Assembly (NCBI RefSeq): GCF_019823105.1
Contig: NZ_CP081958.1
Span: 1-64,000 of the forward strand
From: Halobaculum magnesiiphilum
GTDB taxonomy: Archaea > Halobacteriota > Halobacteria > Halobacteriales > Haloferacaceae
Direction: 5' to 3'
Length of the DNA stretch: 64,000 bases
The notes beneath the pieces were generated by a model, which searched no databases, was not told the origin of the DNA, and saw only the letters and a program-made list of their open reading frames with translations. This document shows positions 6,316-19,204 of the stretch, in pieces; within the stretch, counting starts at the first letter, position 1; each line of letters begins with the position of its first letter. Both the position numbers and the translations under genes were made by a program.

Positions 6316-7404
6316 TCAGATCAAGCTATCGAGGTCGTCGTTCTGGAACAGCTTGTCCGCCTCGTCCTGCTCCTGTTCCTGTCGCTGTGCCTCCTCGCGG
6401 GCCTCCTTCGCCTGCTGCATGAACTCCTCCAGCCGTTCGGAGCGCTCGACGCCGCCCAACAGCACCAGCGACGCGAGCCGTTCGGAGTCGATCGGGAAGT
6501 CGCCGCCGCGGACCTGCATCGAGCCGGTCTCCTCCTCGAGCCACTTGCGGGCGCGCTCGACGCCCTTGCGCGAGATGCGTTCGGGTTTGCCGGCGACGAC
6601 GAGCAACGCGGCGTCGGCCTTCGTCGCGTTCGGTAGGCTCGTTCCGGTGAGCAGCGCGTTTCGGGTGACGCTCGTGACGACGTTGACGTTCGTGTCGGCG
6701 TCGTCGTCGGCCTCGGCGCTGGCGTAGCCGAGCGCCGCGACCCCGCCCGACCGGAGCGTGTTGATCACCTCGCTGGTGTCGACGACGGACTCGCCGACGC
6801 CCTCGACTGCCTCGCCGGAGGCGAACAACAGCCCCACCCGGCGGGCGATGGACCTGTTGATGCTGTCGAACCCCTCCTCCAGGCTCTCGCCCGAGGAGTG
6901 CCACGCGTCGTTGTCGATGAGGATCGTCGCGTCGGCCTCCCGGGCCAGCGTCTTCAGCGACCGACCGGCGTTCACCTTGTACATCGCGCCCTCGCCTCGT
7001 CCGGGGAGGATCCCGAGCCCGTACACGGGAATCTCGTACACGCGGTTCAACTCCTTCGCGAGCACCGGGGCGCCGCCCGAGCCCGTGCCGCCGCCCAACC
7101 CCGCGACGACGACGATCGCCTCCGCCTCGGCGGTGATCCGGCCGTCGAGCGCCGACAGCACCTCGCCGATGTCCGACTGCATCACCTCCGCCCCCAGCTC
7201 GTTGTCGCCGCCCACGCCGTGTCCCTTCACGCGGTCCTGTCCAACGAGGACCGTATCGATCGACAGCGGCTGCAGGTCCGCCTCCGCTGTGTTGACCGCG
7301 AGCGCCCCCCGAACGGACTCGAATCCCATGTCGTGGTCGAACTCGACCAGCGAGGAGGTGACCTTGCCGCCGGCCTGGCCGACGCCGATGAGGACCGTTT
7401 TCAT
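6316..7404 (-). CDS. cetZ: CetZ-type tubulin/FtsZ superfamily GTPase
   Basis: 362-residue tubulin-superfamily cytoskeletal protein. Archaeal CetZ proteins form filaments that affect cell shape and motility. Residues 9-15 (GQAGGKV) and the tubulin signature GGGTGSGG (104-111) are clear. The N-terminal GQAGGK and lack of an FtsZ-type C-terminal peptide favour CetZ over FtsZ. The charged C-terminus ends FQNDDLDSLI. The ATG at 7404 fits the family start, and 35 upstream in-frame codons are discarded. It is divergent from the pilus-like locus, 149 bp away. Which CetZ paralogue this is cannot be settled without alignment. Confidence 0.9.
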   Translation of the reverse strand: MKTVLIGVGQAGGKVTSSLVEFDHDMGFESVRGALAVNTAEADLQPLSIDTVLVGQDRVKGHGVGGDNELGAEVMQSDIGEVLSALDGRITAEAEAIVVVAGLGGGTGSGGAPVLAKELNRVYEIPVYGLGILPGRGEGAMYKVNAGRSLKTLAREADATILIDNDAWHSSGESLEEGFDSINRSIARRVGLLFASGEAVEGVGESVVDTSEVINTLRSGGVAALGYASAEADDDADTNVNVVTSVTRNALLTGTSLPNATKADAALLVVAGKPERISRKGVERARKWLEEETGSMQVRGGDFPIDSERLASLVLLGGVERSERLEEFMQQAKEAREEAQRQEQEQDEADKLFQNDDLDSLI

Positions 7405-7523
7405 ACACACGCAGTTGGCGCAGCCCACCGCTTGAATCTTCCCACGGTTGCGGGTGTCGGGGCGAGCCACGGCGACGTTCCTCGATCGACCCTCCGCAGT
7501 CGTCGACATTCACCGCCCCGAAG

Positions 7524-7532
7524 TTCAAATAC
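7524..7532 (+). promoter_or_regulatory. Leaderless promoter of the pilus-like locus (copy 1)
   Basis: The element ttcaaatac ends 21 bp before the ATG at 7554. It matches the TATA elements at 8701 and 12688 inside the same locus, and all are followed by a GC-rich run just before an ATG. Confidence 0.6.
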
Positions 7533-7553
7533 GAACACGCGGCCATCCCCCGC

Positions 7554-8216
7554 ATGTCGCGCGATATTCCGAGCGGATCCCCGCCGGACGACGAGCATCC
7601 GACGGACGCCGACGGCGGCTCCGTCCCAGGGAGAGCCGCCGTCGACGACCTCAGAACCAGGCTCGCGGCCGTCGAGCGAGCGTGCTCCGGCGACGCGGAC
7701 GTCGGTCCGGCAGACCTCGGGGACGCCGCCGAAGCCACCGCGGAGCTGCAGAATGCGTCGGAGCGGATCGACGAACTGGAGGACCGCGTCGCCGAACTCG
7801 AATCGGCGACCAAGGCCCTCCGTGGCTACGTCGGGTCGATACGCGCGGTGAACGAGCGCGTCGAACGACGAGCCGACCGGGCGCTCGCGGCGTCCCGCGC
7901 GGGGCCGTCTCGGGAACGGCAGGCGACGGACCGATCGGCAGCAAAACGACCGGCAGCCGAGCGACTGCCCGGAGAGTCACCGAATGGGAGCAGACCGGTC
8001 GAAGGCGCACCGGCGAACGACGGGGAGCACCAACCGGACGATACCGGGGGAGGGGATGTGTTCGTCCCAGACGACTGGCGAGATGCGTCCGGCACCGACG
8101 GGGACGGGGTGTCCGGCGCCGACGGGAACTCCACCTACGAGGGATCCGATCGCGAAGACGCTCCCGGCGACGACGACGCGGCGCCGTTAGTCGAGCGACT
8201 GCGCGAGGCGCTGTGA
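7554..8216 (+). CDS. Coiled-coil protein, first gene of the pilus-like locus (DUF7310-like)
   Basis: 220-residue soluble acidic protein. Residues about 25-110 form a likely coiled coil (for example NASERIDELEDRVAELESAT). The rest is disordered and rich in Asp, Gly and Pro. It ends in a short predicted helix, PLVERLREAL. No enzymatic motif is visible. It opens the co-oriented locus and its stop overlaps the GTG of the next gene (GTGA). The ATG sits 21 bp from a TATA box, so the transcript is probably leaderless. From memory it resembles DUF7310, a haloarchaeal coiled-coil family found beside PilB-type ATPases. A regulatory or scaffolding role is a guess. Confidence 0.75.
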   Translation: MSRDIPSGSPPDDEHPTDADGGSVPGRAAVDDLRTRLAAVERACSGDADVGPADLGDAAEATAELQNASERIDELEDRVAELESATKALRGYVGSIRAVNERVERRADRALAASRAGPSRERQATDRSAAKRPAAERLPGESPNGSRPVEGAPANDGEHQPDDTGGGDVFVPDDWRDASGTDGDGVSGADGNSTYEGSDREDAPGDDDAAPLVERLREAL

Positions 8217-8944
8217 TCCGCGTCGTCCTCGCGGTCGTGATGGCGACGGCGCTGTGTGCGGCGTCGCTGCCGGCCGTCGAGACCGCGCGCGTCGAGCGGA
8301 CGACGGCGGCGCTCGATCGCGTCCCGGAGCGGATCGACCGCGCGGCGCTGTCGACGCTCGCGGCGGAGCCGGCGCGACGCTCGGCGACCGGATCGGCGCC
8401 GACCGCGCGACGCGTCGTGTCGTTCTCCGTTCCCGGCGGCTCGCTCGCCGCCGCGCGCGTTCGAGCGCTCGCGCTTTGTTCGGGCGACGAGCTGGGGACG
8501 GCCGTGTTCGTTCACGCCGTCGGCGACGGGGCACCGTCACGAACGGCGCTGTCGGCACCGTACGATCTCCCGGCAGGCGGGATCGCGCTCGACGGGCGTC
8601 AACGCGTGTCCCTCTCGCTGGTTCCCGTCGGATCGGGGACGGACGGGCGCGAGCGCCGCATCCGGGTCCGGCTGCTCCCCTCGCCGACCGCGGACACAGG
8701 TTCAAGTACCGAAACGGGACCACCCCGGCTATGCGATCCTTCGACGGCCTCCGTGACCGCGTCGCCGGCGGGCGGAGCGCCGACGGACGCGAACCGACCG
8801 GCCGCGGAACCGACGAACGAGGCGTCGACTCGGGCGGGTCGTCCGAGGGCGGCTGTCGCTGTCTCGTCGAGTTCGACGGCGGTTCGGGTCCCGCCTCCGA
8901 TTCTGGGGTCGGTTCCGGATCGAGGAGCGCCGGCGGCCCGATGA
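8213..8944 (+). CDS. Small membrane-anchored protein of the pilus-like locus (DUF7311-like)
   Basis: Open frame of 243 codons from a GTG that overlaps the preceding stop. The N-terminus (IRVVLAVVMATALCAASLPA) is a signal anchor or signal peptide. The following region, to about residue 165, looks like a compact extracellular domain. The last ~71 codons run out of phase through the start of the downstream ATPase gene and have the composition of a shadow frame. The natural domain probably ends near RRIRVRLLP, and the stop appears to have been lost or moved. From memory it matches DUF7311. Function unknown; probably part of the secretion or pilus machine. Confidence 0.65.
   Translation: MIRVVLAVVMATALCAASLPAVETARVERTTAALDRVPERIDRAALSTLAAEPARRSATGSAPTARRVVSFSVPGGSLAAARVRALALCSGDELGTAVFVHAVGDGAPSRTALSAPYDLPAGGIALDGRQRVSLSLVPVGSGTDGRERRIRVRLLPSPTADTGSSTETGPPRLCDPSTASVTASPAGGAPTDANRPAAEPTNEASTRAGRPRAAVAVSSSSTAVRVPPPILGSVPDRGAPAAR
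8701..8730 (+). promoter_or_regulatory. Internal leaderless promoter of the ATPase gene (copy 2)
   Basis: ttcaagtacc at 8701-8710 is followed by gaaacgggaccaccccggct and the ATG at 8731. The block acgggaccaccccggc is repeated exactly before the ATG at 12719. It lies inside the 3' part of the preceding open frame. Confidence 0.65.
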
Positions 8945-10827
8945 GCGGTTCGACGGTGCTTCGCGTCGACGCGTCGAGGTGTTCCGGCGGCGACCTCTCG
9001 GTGGATTCGGCGTGCAGGGCGACGGTGATCGACGCGCTCGCCGACCGCGACACCGACCTCGTTCGCGTCCGGAGCGGCGGTCTCGACAGGTTCTACGAGG
9101 GAGATGCCGCGGCGCTGTTGCTCGCCGCCGGCCGGTTCGCGGACGCGGTCGAAGGATACGATCCCGACATCGCGAGTCGCGCTCGCTCGGCTCCCGTCGC
9201 GGTCGCTCGCGAGGCGGTCGGGCGCGCCGGACCGGTCGCGCGACTCGCCGCCGAGACGGGGTTCACGGAGTGGGCCGACGGGGCTATTGGTAGGGACGAC
9301 GCCGGGACGCCGCCGAAATCGCTCCCGGCGAGCGTCGCGCCGGCGGGGGCGCTGGGGCGAACGCGGCCGACGCGCCCGTCCGACGCCGTGTTTCGCGGGA
9401 CGACCGACCTCCCCACGGGCGGAAGCGCGACCGTGTACGACCGCCCGGACGGACTCCCGCACTATCACCTCACGCCGGCGACGCGGGCGTTCTCGACTGA
9501 CGCGCTCGACGTGTTGGCGGCCGCGACGGACGCGCTCGCGACGGGCGAGGTCTCACACGGGCCGCGGTCCCATCGACGCGCCGTCCGACATGCCGCCTCC
9601 GACCGGAGGTCTGGATCCACTGCCGCCGGGGACCCTCCCGACCCGCTCCCGACCGGGGCGCTAACCGAGGCCCTTCGCCGCCATACGCGGGGACTCGGCG
9701 TGCTGGACGAGCTGTTCGCCGACGGCCGCGTGACCGACGCGTTCCTGTCGGCGCCCGCGGCGGACGGGCCGGTCCGGGCGGTCGTCGACGGCGAGGCGAT
9801 GACGACGAACGTCCGGCTGTCGGCCGCCGACATCGACGCGCTCGCGTCCAGGGTCCGTGCGGCCAGCGGCCGGGCGTTCTCCCGCGCGTCGCCGACGGCC
9901 GACGCCGCGCTCGGCGATGTCCGCGTCGCGGCGGTCACCGATCCCGCGAGCGACGGTCGGGGGTTCGCGCTCCGCCGCCGCGACGACGATCCGTGGACGC
10001 TTCCCCGGCTCGTCTCGGTCGGATCGCTTCCGCCGTGGGCCGCTGGATTGCTATCCGTCGCGGTCGAACGTGGGGCCGCGATCCTCGTCGCCGGTCCCCG
10101 AGGAGCTGGAAAGACCTCGCTGCTCGGCGCGCTGTGTCTGGAGGTTCCCGTCGACACCCGGACGGTCCTGATCGAGGACACCCCGGAGCTCCCGGTCGCG
10201 GCGATCCGCGACGCCGGCCGCGACGTGCAACCGCTTTCGGCCGGAACCGACGGCGACGACGCGCTCGCTCCGACTGAAGCCGTCCGGACGGCGCTGCGGT
10301 TCGGCGAGGGCGCGCTGGTCGTCGGCGAGGTTCGCGGGTCGGAGGCGCGGGCGCTGTACGAGGCGATGCGCGTCGGCGCCGCCGCCGACGCGGTTCTCGG
10401 AACGATCCACGGGACCGGCGGTCGGGCGGTCCGCGAGCGCGTCGTCTCCGACCTCGGCGTGCCGGCGTCGTCGTTCGCCACGACGGACCTGGTTGTCACG
10501 CTCGGCCCCGACCGCGCGCTTGCCTCGGTCGAGGAGGTGAAAGGTCCGGCGCCCGGCGATCTCACGACCCTCGTGGAGCGCGACGGCGGGGGAGGCGCCG
10601 GGGACGACTGCGGGAAGGGCGATGGCGGCGAGAACGCTCACACTGCGGCGAGGCCGACGGGGAGGATCGACCGCGGAGAGAGCCGCGTCATCGCCGATCT
10701 CGCTGGTCCGGGTGAGGCGTACGCCGACGTTCGCGAGGCGGTCCGACGCCGGGCGCGGACGATCCGAACGCTCGCGGACGCCGGCAGGACGGACACCGGC
10801 GGGATCGACGCGGCGGACGACCGATGA
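8731..10827 (+). CDS. Type II/IV secretion ATPase, PilB/TadA/VirB11-like
   Basis: 698-residue ATPase predicted to drive assembly of a pilus or pseudopilus at the membrane. Walker A GPRGAGKTS lies near residue 455, an Asp-box-like IEDTPELPV follows, then Walker B LVVGEVRGSEA and the His box GTIHGTGG. The N-terminus carries cysteines (CRCLVEF, then RCSGGDLSVDSACR) that could bind a metal, as in related haloarchaeal ATPases. The start at 8731 is set by a leaderless promoter 21-30 bp upstream. Its stop overlaps the next start (ATGA), coupling it to the PilC-like gene. Confidence 0.88.
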   Translation: MRSFDGLRDRVAGGRSADGREPTGRGTDERGVDSGGSSEGGCRCLVEFDGGSGPASDSGVGSGSRSAGGPMSGSTVLRVDASRCSGGDLSVDSACRATVIDALADRDTDLVRVRSGGLDRFYEGDAAALLLAAGRFADAVEGYDPDIASRARSAPVAVAREAVGRAGPVARLAAETGFTEWADGAIGRDDAGTPPKSLPASVAPAGALGRTRPTRPSDAVFRGTTDLPTGGSATVYDRPDGLPHYHLTPATRAFSTDALDVLAAATDALATGEVSHGPRSHRRAVRHAASDRRSGSTAAGDPPDPLPTGALTEALRRHTRGLGVLDELFADGRVTDAFLSAPAADGPVRAVVDGEAMTTNVRLSAADIDALASRVRAASGRAFSRASPTADAALGDVRVAAVTDPASDGRGFALRRRDDDPWTLPRLVSVGSLPPWAAGLLSVAVERGAAILVAGPRGAGKTSLLGALCLEVPVDTRTVLIEDTPELPVAAIRDAGRDVQPLSAGTDGDDALAPTEAVRTALRFGEGALVVGEVRGSEARALYEAMRVGAAADAVLGTIHGTGGRAVRERVVSDLGVPASSFATTDLVVTLGPDRALASVEEVKGPAPGDLTTLVERDGGGGAGDDCGKGDGGENAHTAARPTGRIDRGESRVIADLAGPGEAYADVREAVRRRARTIRTLADAGRTDTGGIDAADDR

Positions 10828-12674
10828 TATCGTGGACGGCTCTCGGTCGAGGAGTCGCGCGTGCGACCGTGATCGCTTCGCGCCGGTGGCCGGAGCGGTA
10901 CGTCGATCGAGTCGAACCCGACGGGAACCTCGAACGGGCGTGCGCGTTTCTCGGGCTCTCAGTCGACGCCGAACGGATCGCCACCGCGGCCGCGACTGTC
11001 GGCGTCCTCCTCGGGGCGTGTACGTTCGTCGGCGCGTTGGGGTGGTCACTTCTCGACGGCAGCGCGGGGACGGCGCTCGCCGTCCCGGTCGCCGTCGGGT
11101 TCGCGGCGACCGTCGGCTGGGTCGCGTTCTCGGGGATCCGCCGCGCGCCCGTGCTCGCAGCGGCCGTCGCCAGGACACGCGCCGTCGCGGACGCGACGAC
11201 CATCACGAGTGCGCTGTCCCTGTCGCTCCGGCTCACCCCCGTCCCCGAGCGGGCGGTCCGGTTCGCCGCGGACGGCGGGGGCGGCCCACTCCATCGGAGC
11301 CTGGCCGACCACGCCGATCGCGCCGCGGTCGCCGGCGCCGGCGACGGGGGCCTCCGGGAGTTCGCCGCGGAGTGGCGCGAGTGGTTCCCGGCGCTCGACC
11401 GGTCGGTCGCGCTCCTGCTCGCTGCCGCCGACGCCGACACGGGCGGGGACCGGACCCGGCTGCTGGAGCGCGCGGTCGCGGCCGTCGAGGACGACCTGCG
11501 CGATCGGACGGCGTCGTTCGCCGGCGACCTCCGCGCGCCGGTCACCGGCCTGTACGCCTTCGGGGTGCTGCTCCCGCTCGCGCTCGTCAGTACGCTTCCG
11601 GCGGCGGTCGCAGCCGGCGTGACGATCCCGCCGTTGGCGTTCGTCGCGACGTACGACCTGGTGTTGCCCGCGGCGCTCGCGGTCACGGCCGGCCGACTGC
11701 TGCTGCGCAGGCCGGTCGCCTTGCCCGCACCGCGTGTCGACGCGACGCATCCGGACGTTCCCGACCGACGGGGAGTCGCGTTGCTCTCGGGCGCGACGGC
11801 TGCCGCAGTGGGATGGGTCGCGGCTCCGGTCGTCGCCGGCGGGTGGGCGAGTCCGGTGCTCGCCGCCGGCGCGGGCGTCGGGACCGGCCTCTGCGTCCAT
11901 CTTGGCCCGCGCCGGGAGGTGCGGCGGACGATCGAGGAGCGGAACCGCGGGCTGAGCGATGCGCTCGCACTCATAGGCCGCCGTGTAGCCGACGGCGAGG
12001 CCGTCGAACGCGCGCTTCCGGCGGTCGCGGCGTCGCTGTCGGGACCGACCGCGGATGCCCTCGCGGCCGCAAGTCGCCGGATGTCGGCGCTCGGGATCCC
12101 GGTCGGCACAGCCCTCGCCGGTGAGGGCGGTCCGTTCGCTCCGGAGCGCGGGGCCGGCGGCCGAGCGGCCGCCGCGGTGGTCGCGATCGCCGCCGCGGCG
12201 ACGGAGGGTCGGCCCGCCGGCGACGCGCTGGTGGCGCACGCCGACCGGCTCGACGCGCTCGCGGCCGCCGAGCGCGACGCGCGTCGGGAGCTGGCTGCCG
12301 TGACGGGGACGCTCCGCGACACCGCCGCCCTGTTCGGGCCGCTCGTCGGCGGCGCGACGGTCGCACTGGCGGGGCGGCTCGACGGACTCGAGGGGCTCGG
12401 CGGGGCCGGCGGGATCGGGTCGGGTGTCGGCGAGGTCGGGCGGGCAGCCGGCGGCGCGGTCGCCGGGGAGGCTGCCGCGCTCCCGGCGTCGCTCGTCGGA
12501 CCGGTCATCGGCGTGTACGTCCTGGCGCTCGCGGCCACGCTGACCGCGTTCGCGACGGGGCTGGAGCGCGGGCTCGACGTGACGGTCGTCGGCTACCGCG
12601 TCGGGCTCGCGCTCGTCGCCGCCAGCGGCGCGTTCCTCGCCGGGCACGCCGCCGTCGCGATGCTCGTCGCGTGA
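10824..12674 (+). CDS. Type II secretion F / PilC/TadC-like polytopic membrane protein
   Basis: 616-residue integral membrane platform protein. Hydrophobic segments occur near residues 55-105, 245-290, 315-350 and 550-615, separated by two cytoplasmic helical domains, the typical duplicated T2SF layout. It should form the inner platform turned by the PilB-like ATPase, whose stop it overlaps by 4 nt. The region around residues 510-545 is Gly/Ala-rich. High GC produces long shadow frames on the other strand, which I discount. Confidence 0.85.
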   Translation: MISWTALGRGVARATVIASRRWPERYVDRVEPDGNLERACAFLGLSVDAERIATAAATVGVLLGACTFVGALGWSLLDGSAGTALAVPVAVGFAATVGWVAFSGIRRAPVLAAAVARTRAVADATTITSALSLSLRLTPVPERAVRFAADGGGGPLHRSLADHADRAAVAGAGDGGLREFAAEWREWFPALDRSVALLLAAADADTGGDRTRLLERAVAAVEDDLRDRTASFAGDLRAPVTGLYAFGVLLPLALVSTLPAAVAAGVTIPPLAFVATYDLVLPAALAVTAGRLLLRRPVALPAPRVDATHPDVPDRRGVALLSGATAAAVGWVAAPVVAGGWASPVLAAGAGVGTGLCVHLGPRREVRRTIEERNRGLSDALALIGRRVADGEAVERALPAVAASLSGPTADALAAASRRMSALGIPVGTALAGEGGPFAPERGAGGRAAAAVVAIAAAATEGRPAGDALVAHADRLDALAAAERDARRELAAVTGTLRDTAALFGPLVGGATVALAGRLDGLEGLGGAGGIGSGVGEVGRAAGGAVAGEAAALPASLVGPVIGVYVLALAATLTAFATGLERGLDVTVVGYRVGLALVAASGAFLAGHAAVAMLVA

Positions 12675-12687
12675 CCCCGCACGAGGG

Positions 12688-12718
12688 TTCAAATACCGGA
12701 ACGGGACCACCCCGGCAC
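12688..12718 (+). promoter_or_regulatory. Internal leaderless promoter of the third module (copy 3)
   Basis: ttcaaatacc at 12688-12697 is followed by ggaacgggaccaccccggca and the ATG at 12719. Apart from a few changes it is a copy of the promoter at 8701. It begins just past the PilC-like stop. Confidence 0.65.
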
Positions 12719-13213
12719 ATGATCGACGCACCACTCGACGTCTGGTACGCCTGGCTCGGGCTCGCCCTCGCCGGCGCGGTGACGCTGGGGGTCGTGGCCG
12801 GACTCCCGACCGCTCCGCCGCCGGACGCCGTCTCCGTCGCCGCGACCGTCGACACCGTCGCCGCCGCCGACGCGCCCGCGACGGCCCGCTACCGGATCGC
12901 CGCCGACCGCGTCAGGGTGACGACCCGCGGCGTCTCGTTGCGCTCCGACGGCGGCAGCGCGTTCGCCGGCTTCGGGACGGACGCGGTCGTCCCGGTCGAG
13001 CCCGACGGCCCGCTCGCCGGCGTCGCCCTCGGCGACAGCCCGCGCCATGCGTTCGATTCGCCCGGGGAGTTCGCCGTCGCGGTCGCGACGGCGCGTGCCG
13101 AAGGGTCGCCCACGGAGACGGACTCGGGTGGCGATTGGACCGCGGGCCGGACGCTGCACGCCCGGCACGTCTCGTGGGGGGAGACGGATGTCACGCTCGT
13201 CCTCGTCGCGTGA
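12719..13213 (+). CDS. Single-pass membrane protein of the pilus-like locus (DUF7283-like)
   Basis: 164-residue protein. A membrane segment spans residues ~9-28 (WYAWLGLALAGAVTLGVVAG), followed by a predicted beta-rich extracellular domain. An in-frame GTG at 12671 exists, but the TATA box at 12688 would then lie inside the gene, so the ATG at 12719 is preferred. It overlaps the next gene by 26 nt. It resembles DUF7283 from memory and is probably a minor pilin-like or accessory component. Confidence 0.72.
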   Translation: MIDAPLDVWYAWLGLALAGAVTLGVVAGLPTAPPPDAVSVAATVDTVAAADAPATARYRIAADRVRVTTRGVSLRSDGGSAFAGFGTDAVVPVEPDGPLAGVALGDSPRHAFDSPGEFAVAVATARAEGSPTETDSGGDWTAGRTLHARHVSWGETDVTLVLVA

Positions 13214-13598
13214 GCGCGCGTTCGCCGAGCCGACGGTGGCGCTTGCTGCGGTGCTCGCGCTGTCCTTCGGGATCGCCGCCTACACGGTCGTATTGGGCGG
13301 CGTCGGCGATCGACGGCCGACCGCCGAGCCGACGCTGGAACGCGTCCACGACGAGATCACGGTCGGCGGCGTCGCGGACCCGGAGCGGTTCGACCGAGCC
13401 GGCGCCGTGATCGCTCGGACGGACACTCGTGCGAACGCCACCCTGCGCGTCGCCGGGCGACGGTGGCGCGTCGGGCCCGCGGTTCCCGAGCGAGCCACGG
13501 CCGCCGCGAACCGCGCGACCGCGAGCAGACGCGTCGGCGTCGCGCTCGCACCCGGACGCGTTCGACCGGGGCGGCTCCGGGTCACGGTGTGGCGATGA
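13188..13598 (+). CDS. Pilin-like membrane protein (DUF7285-like)
   Basis: 136-residue protein with a short Arg/Ser-rich N-terminus. ERAFAEPTVALAAVLALSFG then begins a ~22-residue hydrophobic helix. This arrangement (basic residue, small residue, Glu near the start of the helix) recalls class III signal peptides of archaeal pilins and TadE-like pseudopilins, though the canonical K/R-G site is not exact. It overlaps the preceding gene by 26 nt and the following gene by 4 nt (ATGA). The role in the machine is inferred from context. Confidence 0.7.
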   Translation: MSRSSSSRERAFAEPTVALAAVLALSFGIAAYTVVLGGVGDRRPTAEPTLERVHDEITVGGVADPERFDRAGAVIARTDTRANATLRVAGRRWRVGPAVPERATAAANRATASRRVGVALAPGRVRPGRLRVTVWR

Positions 13599-14572
13599 CC
13601 GGGTCGCTGCTCGACGTGTGTCTCGCGCTCCTCCTGATCGGCGCCGCGGCCGGAACGCTCGTCGGCGCCGACGCGGAGGCAGCCATCGCCGCCGACATCG
13701 GAGTCGCGTCGTCGCGTGCGAGCGGAACCGCCGAGACGCTCGCGTCGTCGACGGCGGCGGTCGAGTACACGCTCGCTCCCGATCGCGAGGGAACGGGAAC
13801 CGACGGTGCGGCCGCATCGCCGGAGGCAACGCGGGTTGCCCACGCGACGCTGGCCGAGCATCTCGCGCGCGCAGCGGTCCGGTCGACGACGTTCGATGCC
13901 TCGGGGCGGGGTGACGACACGACACCGGCCGACGTGTCGGTGCCGTCGGCGACGGTCACGGACTACCGACGGACGGTCCGTGAGACGGTCGCCGGGGCGA
14001 TCGGTCCACGGACGAGGGTGCGCGCCGTCTGGCGTCCGCTCCCGTGCGACGACCGAGGGGGCGCGGATCGAGACGGGGCGGACCGGGGCGGAGCGGATCG
14101 AGGCAGTACAGGCCGGGAGGAAGCCCATCGGATCGGCGGCGAGGTCACGGTCGGCCCTCGGCCGCCCGCGTCGGCAACTGTCCACGCCGCTCGGTTCGCC
14201 GTTCCGGTCGCCCCGTCGTCGGAACCGACTCCGAGCGACCGGGTCGACGCTGACAAGCCCTCGCGCGCCGCCGTGCGGACGGTCGCTGTGCTGTTCCCGC
14301 CCGACCGCGTCGCCGCGGCCGCCCGCGGCGACTCCGCGGCGGCCGCCGCCGTGACCGAGCGGTACCGTGCGGTTGGCGACGCCTTGGGCGTCGACGCAGT
14401 TGGCGCGCTGAAGCGCGGCGGGCCGCGCGAGGCGAACCGAGCGCTCGCGACGGCCCTCGCCGAGCGATATCCCGCGGAGCGACGCTCGACGGACGACGCC
14501 GTCGACGGGTCCGACTCGTGCGTCGGGGACCCGAACCGCGTGACCGTCGTTGTCAGGACGTGGTCGCCGTGA
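13595..14572 (+). CDS. Membrane-anchored protein of the pilus-like locus (DUF7284-like)
   Basis: 325-residue protein. The N-terminus MTGSLLDVCLALLLIGAAAG is a membrane anchor or pseudopilin helix, and the rest is predicted to be extracellular. A short degenerate Asp-Arg-Gly-rich repeat (GGADRDGADRGGADRG) lies near residues 155-170. No known catalytic motif. It starts within the stop of the preceding gene and its own stop overlaps the GTG of the next, consistent with one translational unit. It resembles DUF7284 from memory. Confidence 0.7.
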   Translation: MTGSLLDVCLALLLIGAAAGTLVGADAEAAIAADIGVASSRASGTAETLASSTAAVEYTLAPDREGTGTDGAAASPEATRVAHATLAEHLARAAVRSTTFDASGRGDDTTPADVSVPSATVTDYRRTVRETVAGAIGPRTRVRAVWRPLPCDDRGGADRDGADRGGADRGSTGREEAHRIGGEVTVGPRPPASATVHAARFAVPVAPSSEPTPSDRVDADKPSRAAVRTVAVLFPPDRVAAAARGDSAAAAAVTERYRAVGDALGVDAVGALKRGGPREANRALATALAERYPAERRSTDDAVDGSDSCVGDPNRVTVVVRTWSP

Positions 14573-17500
14573 GCGCCCGGACCGACTCCGGCCGTTCGGT
14601 CGCCGCGACCCGCCGACTCGGCGTCGGAAGGACCGCCGTGGTGTCGTGCGATGACGGTGCCGGTAGCGGCGGCGACGGCGACAGAGGGATGGTTCCCTTC
14701 GCGCTGATCGCCGTCGTCCTCCTGCTCGGCAGCGTCGTCTACGCGAACACGCTCGCGCTCGGCGGGCCGGTCGTCGTCGACACCGCCGCCGACGACGCGC
14801 TGGATCGGGCGGAGTCGGTCGGCAGGCCGGCCGTCCGCGCAGCGGCGACAGCCGCCGCGCGGGAGGCGGCGCTGCATCCGGTGACGACGCCGGCGAACAC
14901 GACCGTCGGACGCGCGCTTGACCCCGACCGGCCGTTCCGGGACGCGCTCCGGCTGCGGATCGCGCTCGCATCCGCCGAGGCGCTGGCGAACGCGCGGACC
15001 GACGCCGGCGGCGTGACCGCGACCGCGTCGCTGCCGGCGGTCGATTCGCCGAACGACGTCCGGGCCGCCATCGAGCGCGTCTCGGTCGCGCCGCTCGCGA
15101 ACGGAACCGCGATGCGCGTCACCGTCCGGAACGTGACGCTTACGGCGACCCGCGGGGGCGAGGCCGTCGCGACGCGGAAGGTGAACTACAACGTCGCGAT
15201 GGCGCTCCCCGTCCTCGCGATGCACGACCGAACCGTGGCCTACGAGACGCGGCTGAACCGCTCCCCGTTCGAGGGGCCGGGGCTCGGTCGGGCGCTCACG
15301 TGGCGCCTGTGGTCGGTCGCGCAGGCCCGCGGTACCGCGCAGTACCTCGGCGCTCCGATCTCCAATGTGCTCGCGTCCCGGCACGTGGAGCTGTCGACGA
15401 ACGCCGCGTCCCTGCGCGCACAGGGGACAACGTACGGCCGCAGCGACCCGGCGGGACGCGCCGCGATGATCAGGGCGACCGGCCGCGTCGGGGCGCAGGA
15501 TCTCCTCGTGCCGGCGATGGACAGCGGCCCCTCGTGGACCGGTCGCGTCCTCGACGCGGGCGAGACGGCGACGGCGCGGACGGACGGATCGCCGTCGACC
15601 GAACCCGCGGACGACCGCTGGGGCCCGAGCGGCGGCGCCGCCGGCGCAGACGACATCTCGGTCGGGGTGAACGCGACCGCGGATCGGGCGTTCATCGCGT
15701 TCCTCGACGACGACTCCGCAGACGGGTTCGACGCCGCGGTTCGCGGCGCGTACCGCTCCCAAGCGACGCGACGCGTCAGCGTGATCGGTGCCACACGCGC
15801 ACAGCGCCCGCCGCCGTCGTCACCGGGGCCCAATTGGGCGCTCCTGTCGGAACGGGACGACCAGCGGATCGTCGTGGTCGACCGCGAGTCGCGCCGTGAC
15901 GGCTCCGCGAGGTCGGTCGCCGACGAGCGACGGACGGTCGCCGTCCGACACCGGGTGACGCGACGATGGACGCGGAGCGGGTCGATACGGACGACGACGG
16001 CGACGTGGACGGATCGCTATCGCGTTCGGGTCACGCTGTCGGTCGAATACGCGCCGACGACCGGACCGGAGCGACCGACCGCCCCGACCTACGTCCGTGG
16101 CGGCCCGCTCGACGGGCCGAACCTCGCGGACGTGCCGGCGGCCGCGCGGGCGGAGTTGTTGCCGCCGGGGGCGGCGGATCGGGAAGCACGAGCCGCGATC
16201 CGCGCCCGGACGAACGAGGCCGGATTCGGACACGCGACGGCCGATCGAACGATCGTCCACGGCGACCGACCGGCCGGACTCGACGACTGGGTCTACCGGG
16301 ATCTGATCGGCTTGCGTGAGCGGGTTCGGAACGTCTCCGTTCCCGTGTCGCGCTCGGCCGTCGCCGCCGGGGAGGCGAACGCCGCCCGACGGCTGGCGAC
16401 GGCGATCAGGAGCCGACGGGCAACGCTTGTCGACGCGCCGGAGACGTACGACGGCGCCGCCGACCGGGCGCGTGTAGCTGCCAGGGCGGGGTACGTCGAC
16501 GCCGTCCTCGCCGATCTCGACGCGCGGGCCGGCGGCTCGACCGCGCGAAACGAGGAGTATCTCGATCGGATCGGGGAGATCCGTGGCGACGCGGACGACC
16601 GAATCGACGACCTCGCCCGTGTCGCCGCCGCCGCCACAGCGCCGGAGCCGGCGCCCGCCGGACGGTGGCACGCCGGCGAGGTGACGCTCACGCCGCGCGG
16701 GACACCCGGATATCTCCCGGTGACGGCCGTCGACTCCGAGCACGTCGGTTCGCTGGCGCCCGGGGAGTCGGTCCACCCGCTGGCCGCGCGCAACACGAAC
16801 CTGTTCGCCGTGCCGACCGGCGACGCCGCGGACGCCGTCACCGACGCCGCGCTTCCCGAGAAGCGCACCGCGTCGCTTCCGGAGGCAGGACGGGCGCTCG
16901 TCGCCGCGAACCGGACCGCCGCGGCGACGAACACGAGTTCGTCCCCGGACGGCGACCACGACAGCGCGCGAGCAACGCTACAACGACGGGTGACGGACGA
17001 GCTCCGTGCGGTCGACTTGCGCGCCCTTGCGGTACTCGACCGCCGGACTTCACTCTCTCGTGAAGACCGGATCGCCGCGGTTCGCGCGGCGAATCGAAGA
17101 TGGTCGGCGCCGGGGGAACGAACAGCCGCGGTCGTCAACGGCTCGTACGCCACCGCGGTCGCGCGCGCCGCGACCGTCCGCGCCGGCCCCGGCGACGGCG
17201 ACGAGATCGACCGGGATCGGCTGGCGCTCCGGCTGCGTGTCGAGACCGCCGACACCGCGACGAACGCCAGCGTCGACGTTCCCGAGGGGATCCGCGCCGG
17301 TACCGTGGACGAGACGCGGGCGGCGCGGCGCGCGGCGTTGCGCCGGGCGGCCAAGCGGGCCGGCTCGAACGCCACGGAACGGCTCCACAAGCGCTACGGG
17401 AAGGGAAAGCTCGGACCGGTGCTCGCCGGACTCCCGGTCGCGCCGGTCCCCGGCTACTGGTACGCGACGGTGAACGTCTGGGACGTGGAGGTCGCCGGCG

Positions 17501-17826
17501 CGTATCCCCGGTTCGCGGTCACCGCCCCGGTCGGCGGCCCCGACGGCGGCGACGGGCGAGTCCGCTACGTCCGCGACGGCCGGAACGTGACGGTCGACGT
17601 GGACGGCGACGGGAGTGCCGAGCGGCTCGGGCGCAGCGAGCGTGTCACCTTCCGCACGTGGACGGTGGTCGTGGTCGTCGTCCCGGCCGGCCCGTCCGGC
17701 GTCGGCGACGTGGACGGGAACGCCGACGAACGATCCGCCGGCTGGCCGTGTCCGTCGGTGCCGAACGGCAGCGGGACGGCGACAGCGACCGACGTTCCCG
17801 GCTGCCCCCGGTCGGGCGGGGAGTGA
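14569..17826 (+). CDS. Very large pilin-like/adhesin-like protein (DUF7286-like)
   Basis: 1085-residue protein, the largest of the locus. After a ~40-residue charged lead comes DRGMVPFALIAVVLLLGSVV, a single hydrophobic helix preceded by Arg-Gly, reminiscent of a prepilin peptidase site. About 1000 residues of extracellular, Arg/Ala/Asp-rich sequence follow, with many N-x-S/T sites. There is no second membrane anchor. It could be the tip or a surface-exposed subunit of the pilus-like structure. The GTG at 14569, which shares bases with the preceding stop, is preferred to the in-frame start at 14518. It resembles DUF7286 from memory. Confidence 0.72.
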   Translation: MSARTDSGRSVAATRRLGVGRTAVVSCDDGAGSGGDGDRGMVPFALIAVVLLLGSVVYANTLALGGPVVVDTAADDALDRAESVGRPAVRAAATAAAREAALHPVTTPANTTVGRALDPDRPFRDALRLRIALASAEALANARTDAGGVTATASLPAVDSPNDVRAAIERVSVAPLANGTAMRVTVRNVTLTATRGGEAVATRKVNYNVAMALPVLAMHDRTVAYETRLNRSPFEGPGLGRALTWRLWSVAQARGTAQYLGAPISNVLASRHVELSTNAASLRAQGTTYGRSDPAGRAAMIRATGRVGAQDLLVPAMDSGPSWTGRVLDAGETATARTDGSPSTEPADDRWGPSGGAAGADDISVGVNATADRAFIAFLDDDSADGFDAAVRGAYRSQATRRVSVIGATRAQRPPPSSPGPNWALLSERDDQRIVVVDRESRRDGSARSVADERRTVAVRHRVTRRWTRSGSIRTTTATWTDRYRVRVTLSVEYAPTTGPERPTAPTYVRGGPLDGPNLADVPAAARAELLPPGAADREARAAIRARTNEAGFGHATADRTIVHGDRPAGLDDWVYRDLIGLRERVRNVSVPVSRSAVAAGEANAARRLATAIRSRRATLVDAPETYDGAADRARVAARAGYVDAVLADLDARAGGSTARNEEYLDRIGEIRGDADDRIDDLARVAAAATAPEPAPAGRWHAGEVTLTPRGTPGYLPVTAVDSEHVGSLAPGESVHPLAARNTNLFAVPTGDAADAVTDAALPEKRTASLPEAGRALVAANRTAAATNTSSSPDGDHDSARATLQRRVTDELRAVDLRALAVLDRRTSLSREDRIAAVRAANRRWSAPGERTAAVVNGSYATAVARAATVRAGPGDGDEIDRDRLALRLRVETADTATNASVDVPEGIRAGTVDETRAARRAALRRAAKRAGSNATERLHKRYGKGKLGPVLAGLPVAPVPGYWYATVNVWDVEVAGAYPRFAVTAPVGGPDGGDGRVRYVRDGRNVTVDVDGDGSAERLGRSERVTFRTWTVVVVVVPAGPSGVGDVDGNADERSAGWPCPSVPNGSGTATATDVPGCPRSGGE

Positions 17827-17860: not shown

Positions 17861-18295
17861 ATGCTCTACGACGCCCTCGCGGAGCCGGACGGGGCGACAC
17901 CGGGGGACCTGCTCGAGGCGTACGCGACCGAGCTGGCGGCGGCGCTCGACGGCGCCGACCCAGCGGCCGTGGCCGCCGAGACCGGGGTCGACGAGTCGGT
18001 CGTCGCGGCGATGGCCGCGGGCGACGCCGACGCGATCGCGGCGGTTCGGCTTGCCGACGCCGCGGCCGTCCTCGAACGCGAGGAGGGCGTTCCCGCCGAC
18101 GACATCGCCTACGAGGTGCGCGATCACGTGATGATGGAGATGGTGACGGCCATCCTCGACGTGGACACGATCGCCGCCGAGATCGACGCCGACCTCACCG
18201 GTCAGGAGGTCCAGCAGGCGCTGGAGGGTCGCACGCGACTCACGCTCGGCGAGTTGGCCGAGATCCAGGCGCTCATGATCGAGCGCACGCCGTAA
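17861..18295 (+). CDS. Conserved haloarchaeal protein (DUF5791-like)
   Basis: 144-residue acidic, all-helical soluble protein of unknown function. It contains an internal helix-turn-helix-like stretch (VAAETGVDESVVAAMAAGDA), and the end (TRLTLGELAEIQALMIERTP) is conserved in my memory of DUF5791. It lies 34 bp past the pilus-like locus and 18 bp before an SDR gene, so it may be co-transcribed with either. The ATG at 17861 is the only methionine that gives a plausible length. Confidence 0.72.
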   Translation: MLYDALAEPDGATPGDLLEAYATELAAALDGADPAAVAAETGVDESVVAAMAAGDADAIAAVRLADAAAVLEREEGVPADDIAYEVRDHVMMEMVTAILDVDTIAAEIDADLTGQEVQQALEGRTRLTLGELAEIQALMIERTP

Positions 18296-18313: not shown

Positions 18314-19204
18314 ATGCACGTCACGATCATCGGCTGCGGCTACGTGGGCCTCGAACTCGCACGCCAACTCCTCGCCAACGGCCACGATGTCGTCGGCGTT
18401 CGCCGATCGGAGTCGGGATCGGAGGCCGTCGAGGCGACCGGCGCGACGGCCGTCGCCGCCGACGCGACGGACCCCGACTCGCTGTCGGCGCTGCCCGACA
18501 CGGACGCCGTCGTGTTCGCCGCCAGCTCCGGCGGCCGCGGCGCCGACGCCGCCCGCGCGGTGTACGTCGAGGGGATCCGGAACGTGATCCGGGAGTACGG
18601 CGCCCGCGAGTCGCCGCCGGACCGTCTCGTGTACACCTCGAGTACCGGCGTGTACGGCGACCACGGCGGCGACTGGGTCGACGAGGAGACGCCGCTGGAC
18701 CCGACCACCGACAAGACCCGCGTGCTCGCCGAGGCCGAGCGCGTCGCCCGCGAGGAGGCGGCCGCCGTCGGAATCGACGGCACGGCCGCTCGCTTCGCGG
18801 GGCTGTACGGTCCCGACCGCTACCGGCTGGATCGGTACCTCGACGGCCCGGTAACCGCGGGCTACCTGAACATGGTCCACCGCGACGACGCCGCCGGCGC
18901 GGTGCGGTTCCTGCTGGAGGCGGACCTCGCGCGCGATAAGGTCGTCCTCGTCGTCGACGACGAGCCCGCCGACAAGTGGGCGTTCGCCGACTGGCTGGCC
19001 GACGAGTGCGGCGTCGAACAGCCCGAGAAGCGCACGAAGGAGGAACGGATCGCGGCGGGCGACCTCTCGACGGCCGCCGAACGGCGGATCCGCACGAGCA
19101 AACGCTGCTCGAACGACCGGCTCCGGGAACTGGGATACGAGTTCAAGTATCCCACGTATCGAACCGGATACCGGGCGGCGATCGAGGCGTATCGGGGCGA
19201 GTAA
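18314..19204 (+). CDS. NAD(P)-dependent epimerase/dehydratase-like SDR protein
   Basis: 296-residue extended-SDR protein. The N-terminal Rossmann motif IIGCGYVGLELARQLL is followed by DATD, VYTSSTGVYG and a distal KTRVLAE, in the order expected for nucleotide-sugar epimerases. The Tyr-x3-Lys pair is not in its classical spacing, so an atypical reductase of the YeeZ type is also possible. Substrate unknown. It is read with the DUF5791 gene (18 bp gap). Confidence 0.8.
   Translation: MHVTIIGCGYVGLELARQLLANGHDVVGVRRSESGSEAVEATGATAVAADATDPDSLSALPDTDAVVFAASSGGRGADAARAVYVEGIRNVIREYGARESPPDRLVYTSSTGVYGDHGGDWVDEETPLDPTTDKTRVLAEAERVAREEAAAVGIDGTAARFAGLYGPDRYRLDRYLDGPVTAGYLNMVHRDDAAGAVRFLLEADLARDKVVLVVDDEPADKWAFADWLADECGVEQPEKRTKEERIAAGDLSTAAERRIRTSKRCSNDRLRELGYEFKYPTYRTGYRAAIEAYRGE

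Follow-up and report, generated by a model that had tools for sequence, protein, structure and literature searches.

Type IV pili of subclade 4F, as set out in the main text of PMC4858521, occur in Halobacteria and Methanomicrobia and are accompanied by a coiled-coil protein, an S-layer-like protein and an FtsZ-family neighbor. The same text gives PilA-family proteins (arCOG02981/arCOG10216) as the likely major pilins of this subclade and describes the predicted major pilins of archaea as often duplicated PilA-family proteins. The pilB2/C2 regulon adjoins cetZ2 in Haloferacales and Halobacteriales, where predicted pilins were counted within it, and its authors proposed a relatively recent, mobile-element-like acquisition (PMC9856176). 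Adhesion has been shown experimentally for the PilB1-C1 and PilB3-C3 systems of Haloferax volcanii (PMC6491452). We found no experiments on PilB2-C2 in the literature; searches under the DUF family names used below returned nothing, and a search for cetZ2 with pilB2 returned only PMC9856176.

The window analyzed here is a 64,000-nucleotide stretch of the Halobaculum magnesiiphilum genome (contig NZ_CP081958.1, positions 1 to 64,000). Its pilus locus is not new, with features of a haloarchaeal subclade-4F type IV pilus (Makarova 2016) and of the pilB2-C2 regulon beside cetZ2. A preliminary description, made from the sequence alone, had called the set uncharacterized and of no assigned function, which is accurate for experiments but not for recognition, as the system was already a predicted type IV pilus. 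In common with subclade 4F as presented in the main text of PMC4858521, the locus has a VirB11-type ATPase, a TadC-like platform, a coiled-coil protein, an FtsZ-family gene nearby, a large surface protein and predicted pilins; PilA-family major pilins are named there, whereas none was recognized within the locus here. Placement of the locus ATPase in 4F rests on its neighbors, its taxonomic range and a score gap (380-904 versus ≤174 bits), not on a tree. Beyond that main text lie the prepilin site on DUF7286, the homology of DUF7311 to prepilins and the unlinked methanogen cassette as a partner of the ATPase.

The H. volcanii pilB2-C2 regulon (PMC9856176) shares the cetZ, arCOG04674-like and epimerase neighbors, and DUF7286, DUF7283, DUF7285 and DUF7284 were all matched in the H. 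volcanii control genome. PilB1-C1 and PilB3-C3 (PMC6491452) are likewise ATPase-platform pairs that assemble pilins, but PilB3 belongs to another ATPase clade and the pilin sets differ. In the present analysis, co-occurrence in two archaeal groups links unnamed protein families to a single motor, also in genomes in which the genes are not neighbors, and thereby defines a gene set for deletion and imaging.

Composition of the locus

The computed gene set comprises eight ORFs on one strand, identified from the reading frames and Pfam (Table 1). All eight co-oriented, overlapping or near-abutting genes listed in the preliminary description are in place, and the lengths that it gave for DUF7283, DUF7285, DUF7284 and DUF7286 (164, 136, 325 and 1085 residues) agree with the ORFs. 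Most junctions are stop-start overlaps of about 4 nucleotides; the overlaps of DUF7311 with the ATPase and of DUF7283 with DUF7285 are longer, and a 44-nucleotide gap lies 5′ of DUF7283. Each frame has a Pfam family of its own except the platform, which fell below the cut-off, and NCBIfam profiles gave no match to the four proteins DUF7283, DUF7285, DUF7284 and DUF7286. The CetZ start is probably an internal ATG near 7401, within the listed ORF. G+C content is 75.2% in the locus and 68.7% in the remainder of the window. In many orthologs of DUF7310, an acidic and probably disordered stretch leads into a C-terminal L-x-x-R-L-R-like motif, perhaps a docking peptide.

Table 1. Features of the locus and its surroundings, by position in the window (arCOG numbers of neighbors are by synteny only)
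Feature	Positions	Strand	Evidence and remarks
CetZ tubulin-like GTPase, divergent neighbor	6316..7509	-	Pfam CetZ_C 1.3e-67; adjoins locus in many fetched Halobacteria loci
Promoter-like element TTCAAATAC-N4-ACGCGGCCA	7524..7545	+	Ends 8 nt before DUF7310 ATG
DUF7310 cytoplasmic coiled-coil protein, acidic linker, arCOG07564-like	7554..8216	+	Pfam 1.1e-25
DUF7311 single-pass pilin-like protein without prepilin leader; GTG start	8213..8947	+	Pfam 6.2e-27; hhalign 95.8%
Promoter-like element	8701..8722	+	Precedes ATPase ATG (8731)
PilB2-type VirB11/T2SSE assembly ATPase; ATG start inside DUF7311 frame	8731..10827	+	T2SSE 6.9e-14
PilC2/TadC-like membrane platform, 616 aa	10824..12674	+	Pfam T2SSF 0.014, under cut-off; orthologs match
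Promoter-like element	12688..12709	+	Precedes DUF7283 ATG (12719); TATA-like box in most listed upstream regions
DUF7283 single-pass protein without prepilin site, 164 aa	12719..13213	+	Pfam 5e-44
DUF7285 prepilin-like protein, 136 aa; predicted cut between R-A and F-A-E-P in the window	13188..13598	+	Pfam 6e-29
DUF7284 pilin-like protein, 325 aa; leaderless in the window's family (MTGSLLDV)	13595..14572	+	Pfam 1.5e-53
DUF7286 giant prepilin-like protein, 1085 aa, GTG start; proposed tip subunit	14569..17826	+	Pfam E=0, 1120 bits
Downstream neighbor, arCOG04674-like, outside the machine	17912..18295	+	Position kept in many fetched Halobacteria loci
NAD-dependent epimerase-like neighbor, arCOG03095-like	18314..19204	+	Position kept in many fetched Halobacteria loci

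The nearest solved relatives of the locus ATPase include CpaF and FlaI. A CpaF/TadA-like ATPase among these relatives is a likeness to the bacterial Tad pilus, but the 'Tad' label of the preliminary description suits the locus poorly, as the ATPase scored 125.7 bits against the TadA equivalog model, far below the cut-off of 373.15, and a single platform gene stands where the Tad pilus has TadB and TadC. Orthologs of the platform matched T2SSF in 11 of 24 cases (best E-value 4.7e-7), and the methanogen ortholog, at 340-362 bits, adjoins the ATPase there.

Co-occurrence with the ATPase

Across 145 genomes of the class, DUF7286, DUF7283, DUF7285 and DUF7284 were present in 111, 107, 107 and 106, respectively, nearly always in the same genomes and at neighboring coordinates. 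Gene order was largely constant in 60 fetched 20-kb stretches, and its retention in most of these loci argues that the arrangement is not due to chance. The breaks are informative: DUF7283 is shifted downstream in L049, L073 and L083, the ATPase block is inverted in L051 and L076, and DUF7285-7284-7286 adjoins CetZ with no ATPase alongside in L069 and L072. Orthologs of the ATPase in Halobacteria scored 694-904 bits versus ≤174 for paralogs (38 chosen genomes). In 10 of 11 genomes with a separated or rearranged cassette, the ortholog was present but lay at a distance from the pilin genes or beyond the fetched stretch; the exception, genome G045, keeps DUF7285-7284-7286 without an ATPase of the locus type. 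No full-length ortholog was found in the 23 genomes lacking a full cassette, with G044 having an N-terminal fragment only.

The association extends beyond the class. Of the 247 phylum genomes, 59 had both DUF7284 and the locus ATPase type and 183 had neither, with DUF7284 alone in 1 and the ATPase alone in 4; outside Halobacteria, the corresponding counts were 27, 173, 1 and 3. Fisher tests gave 6e-51 for the phylum and 3e-29 outside Halobacteria (phi 0.95), p-values that are inflated by shared ancestry.

In 12 methanogen-type loci (L097-L108), relatives of DUF7285 and DUF7284 come after two single-pass proteins, here called mA and mB. The order mA-mB-DUF7285-DUF7284, with DUF7286 directly next in L101 and L108 and on the opposite strand in some other loci, is found apart from the ATPase and platform, which lie together elsewhere in the genome in the four genomes examined. 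Methanogen and haloarchaeal DUF7285 aligned with an hhalign probability of 96.4%, and DUF7284 with 98.0%. The mA family, which has a prepilin-like leader, aligned with DUF7311 at 95.8% over 127 columns, while the link between mB and DUF7283 was weak (8-31%). Since the examined methanogen ATPase and DUF genes are unlinked, hitchhiking within a single operon cannot account for the co-occurrence. Occurrence in the same genomes, in the same locus and together even when unlinked supports assignment of the DUF proteins, ATPase and platform to one machine, and the single-machine idea of the preliminary description thus withstood the comparison with the ATPase across the 247 genomes, including methanogens with unlinked loci. 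As a separate observation, one methanogen cassette is directly preceded by a second group of single-pass prepilin-like proteins, encoded on the other strand (L101:1-8048).

Remnants were found in several genomes. Only a C-terminal piece of DUF7286 is left between CetZ and the downstream neighbors in G012 (L090), and C-terminal pieces are also kept in G067 and G125. Together with the ATPase fragment of G044 and the methanogen system, these remnants favor an old system that would have been lost several times over a recent gain, unlike the acquisition proposed for the pilB2-C2 regulon (PMC9856176).

Pilin-like proteins and the proposed tip

Prepilin sites were computed for three families, in the case of DUF7284 outside the window's own family. 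DUF7286 carries R at position -2 and G or A at position -1 ahead of its hydrophobic helix in 60 of 60 orthologs, and in all 60 no acidic residue occurs at mature positions 1-20; cleavage is expected between DRG and MVPFALIAVVLLL, which would place the mature start at 14689. Most orthologs of DUF7285 have R-[GA]-Q-x-E-P, and in 43 of 49 the third mature residue is acidic. For DUF7284, R-[GA] precedes [VI]-S-T-V-x-D in 37 of 55 sequences counted, and the remaining 18, with a leaderless start, appear to be the window's family. No prepilin site was seen in any DUF7283 N-terminus read, with starts such as M-F-D-A-P-x-D, and a cleavage site was likewise absent from the DUF7311 N-termini read. Judged by its alignment with mA, DUF7311 is a leaderless relative of the methanogen prepilin-like family and part of the same single-pass set, which therefore has five members rather than four. 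Of the four pilins proposed in the preliminary description, DUF7286 and DUF7285 have a prepilin site, whereas DUF7283 and the window-family DUF7284 have none, although relatives of the latter do; its 'signal-anchored' protein is indeed single-pass but turns out to be DUF7311, the fifth member of the pilin-like set.

A tentative extension is that part of the complex no longer needs the prepilin peptidase. DUF7311, and perhaps DUF7283, would then descend from cleaved prepilins and start without a leader in Halobacteria, and removal of Met from DUF7284 could give the mature N-terminus directly; the Met-Thr start of the window's family lies close to the position at which relatives are cut. It also becomes possible to test whether a pilin-like subunit can function when no leader is cleaved off.

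GspK, the tip pseudopilin of the type II system, is the largest subunit and lacks an acidic residue near its N-terminus. Since DUF7286 likewise exceeds the other subunits in size and is free of acidic residues in this region, we read it as the tip subunit, probably a binding head, by analogy; the earlier placement of the 1085-residue protein in the pilin set, as tip, is borne out as far as a prepilin-like subunit with an invariant R-[GA] that fits a tip. The locus also resembles the type II pseudopilus in having several smaller minor subunits, and differs from it in that no fold match was detected for DUF7286 and that the archaeal envelope has no secretin. In the AlphaFold2 model of DUF7286 (pLDDT 84.3, pTM 0.54), an N-terminal helix (4-23) is followed by a long helix (32-62) and a large mixed head; the model of DUF7284 (pLDDT 80.9, pTM 0.77) has an N-terminal helix (3-34) and an alpha/beta head. 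Foldseek searches with both models gave no match to solved structures at E 0.001, and VIA-align gave no Z of 8 or more. Whole-chain searches of this kind can miss domains, and the missing match to these models would indicate neither a new fold nor the absence of a pilin fold. A calcium-binding assignment for DUF7286 was dropped, as C-terminal EF-hand-like D-x-D-x-D-G loops occurred in only about half of the orthologs with the patterns tried.

Published annotation of such loci includes a surface protein (PMC4858521, PMC9856176), and the size and large extracellular region of DUF7286 would suit that role. We nonetheless consider it improbable that DUF7286 is such a protein: the R-[GA] abutting the hydrophobic helix is the pattern of a prepilin, not of a secretory signal peptide, and DUF7286 is kept jointly with DUF7284 even where the ATPase lies elsewhere.

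Overall, the locus probably encodes one type IV pilus machine of the PilB2/PilC2 kind, in which the five single-pass proteins form a priming and tip complex with DUF7286 at the tip and the major pilin is encoded elsewhere. We infer an order of assembly in which the ATPase and platform would extrude pilin-like subunits from the membrane; DUF7311, DUF7283, DUF7285, DUF7284 and DUF7286 would form a small complex for priming and capping the filament and would not be its bulk; and DUF7286 at the tip would be the likely binding head, with a role in adhesion. The major pilin would probably be a PilA-family protein encoded elsewhere. The presence of Pilin_N genes and one A24 peptidase gene elsewhere in the genome speaks for this model. 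Evidence against this model includes the missing pilin fold match, the lack of a cleavage site on DUF7283 and DUF7311, the weak link of DUF7283 to mB, the lack of a major pilin in the locus, and G045. The gene set also allows tests of how the 1085-residue protein is brought to the cell surface and of its proposed place as a filament cap.

A short pseudopilus, built from the five locus proteins only and serving as a piston for secretion or sensing rather than growing into a long surface filament, would account for the lack of a PilA-type gene or any subunit resembling a bulk major pilin in the locus, for the normally single copy of all five proteins, and for the GspK-like lack of acidic residues in the largest subunit. 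This is nevertheless rather unlikely, given that archaea lack the outer membrane through which a secretin-style exit would lead, that the genes for the pilins of haloarchaeal PilB3-C3 lie elsewhere (PMC6491452 and the main text of PMC4858521), and that the window's genome has four Pilin_N genes, all outside the locus. A filament made wholly of locus proteins, with DUF7285 or DUF7284 as its major pilin, is also quite unlikely. DUF7285 is small and has both a prepilin site and, in most orthologs, an acidic residue near the N-terminus, but both proteins mostly occur as one copy per genome and are clustered with the ATPase gene, in contrast to the often duplicated PilA-family pilins predicted for archaea (main text of PMC4858521). 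One Pilin_N gene lies at C1:2964878-2965087, about 150 bases from the contig end, and the window starts at the contig's first base; if the contig is circular, this gene would precede the locus by about 7.7 kb and would be a candidate major pilin.

Promoter-like elements

A near-identical element, TTCAARTAC-N4/5-CGNGRCCA, precedes three genes of the locus; the pattern tested has just one further exact match in the genome, making four in all. A private regulon defined by TTYAARTA-N5-VCGNGRCCA (DUF7310, ATPase and DUF7283) was rejected, since other genomes carry copies upstream of a helicase-like gene and also at positions that lack a clear ORF; the element is therefore at most a shared promoter type. 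Rfam gave no match to the element-associated stretches in the five loci tested. In related genomes (L145, L153-L157 and L159-L162) the element precedes stretches without a clear ORF, several of which are alike (CGTGACCTGA, GGGAGCG), and these look-alike stretches may represent a small RNA family.
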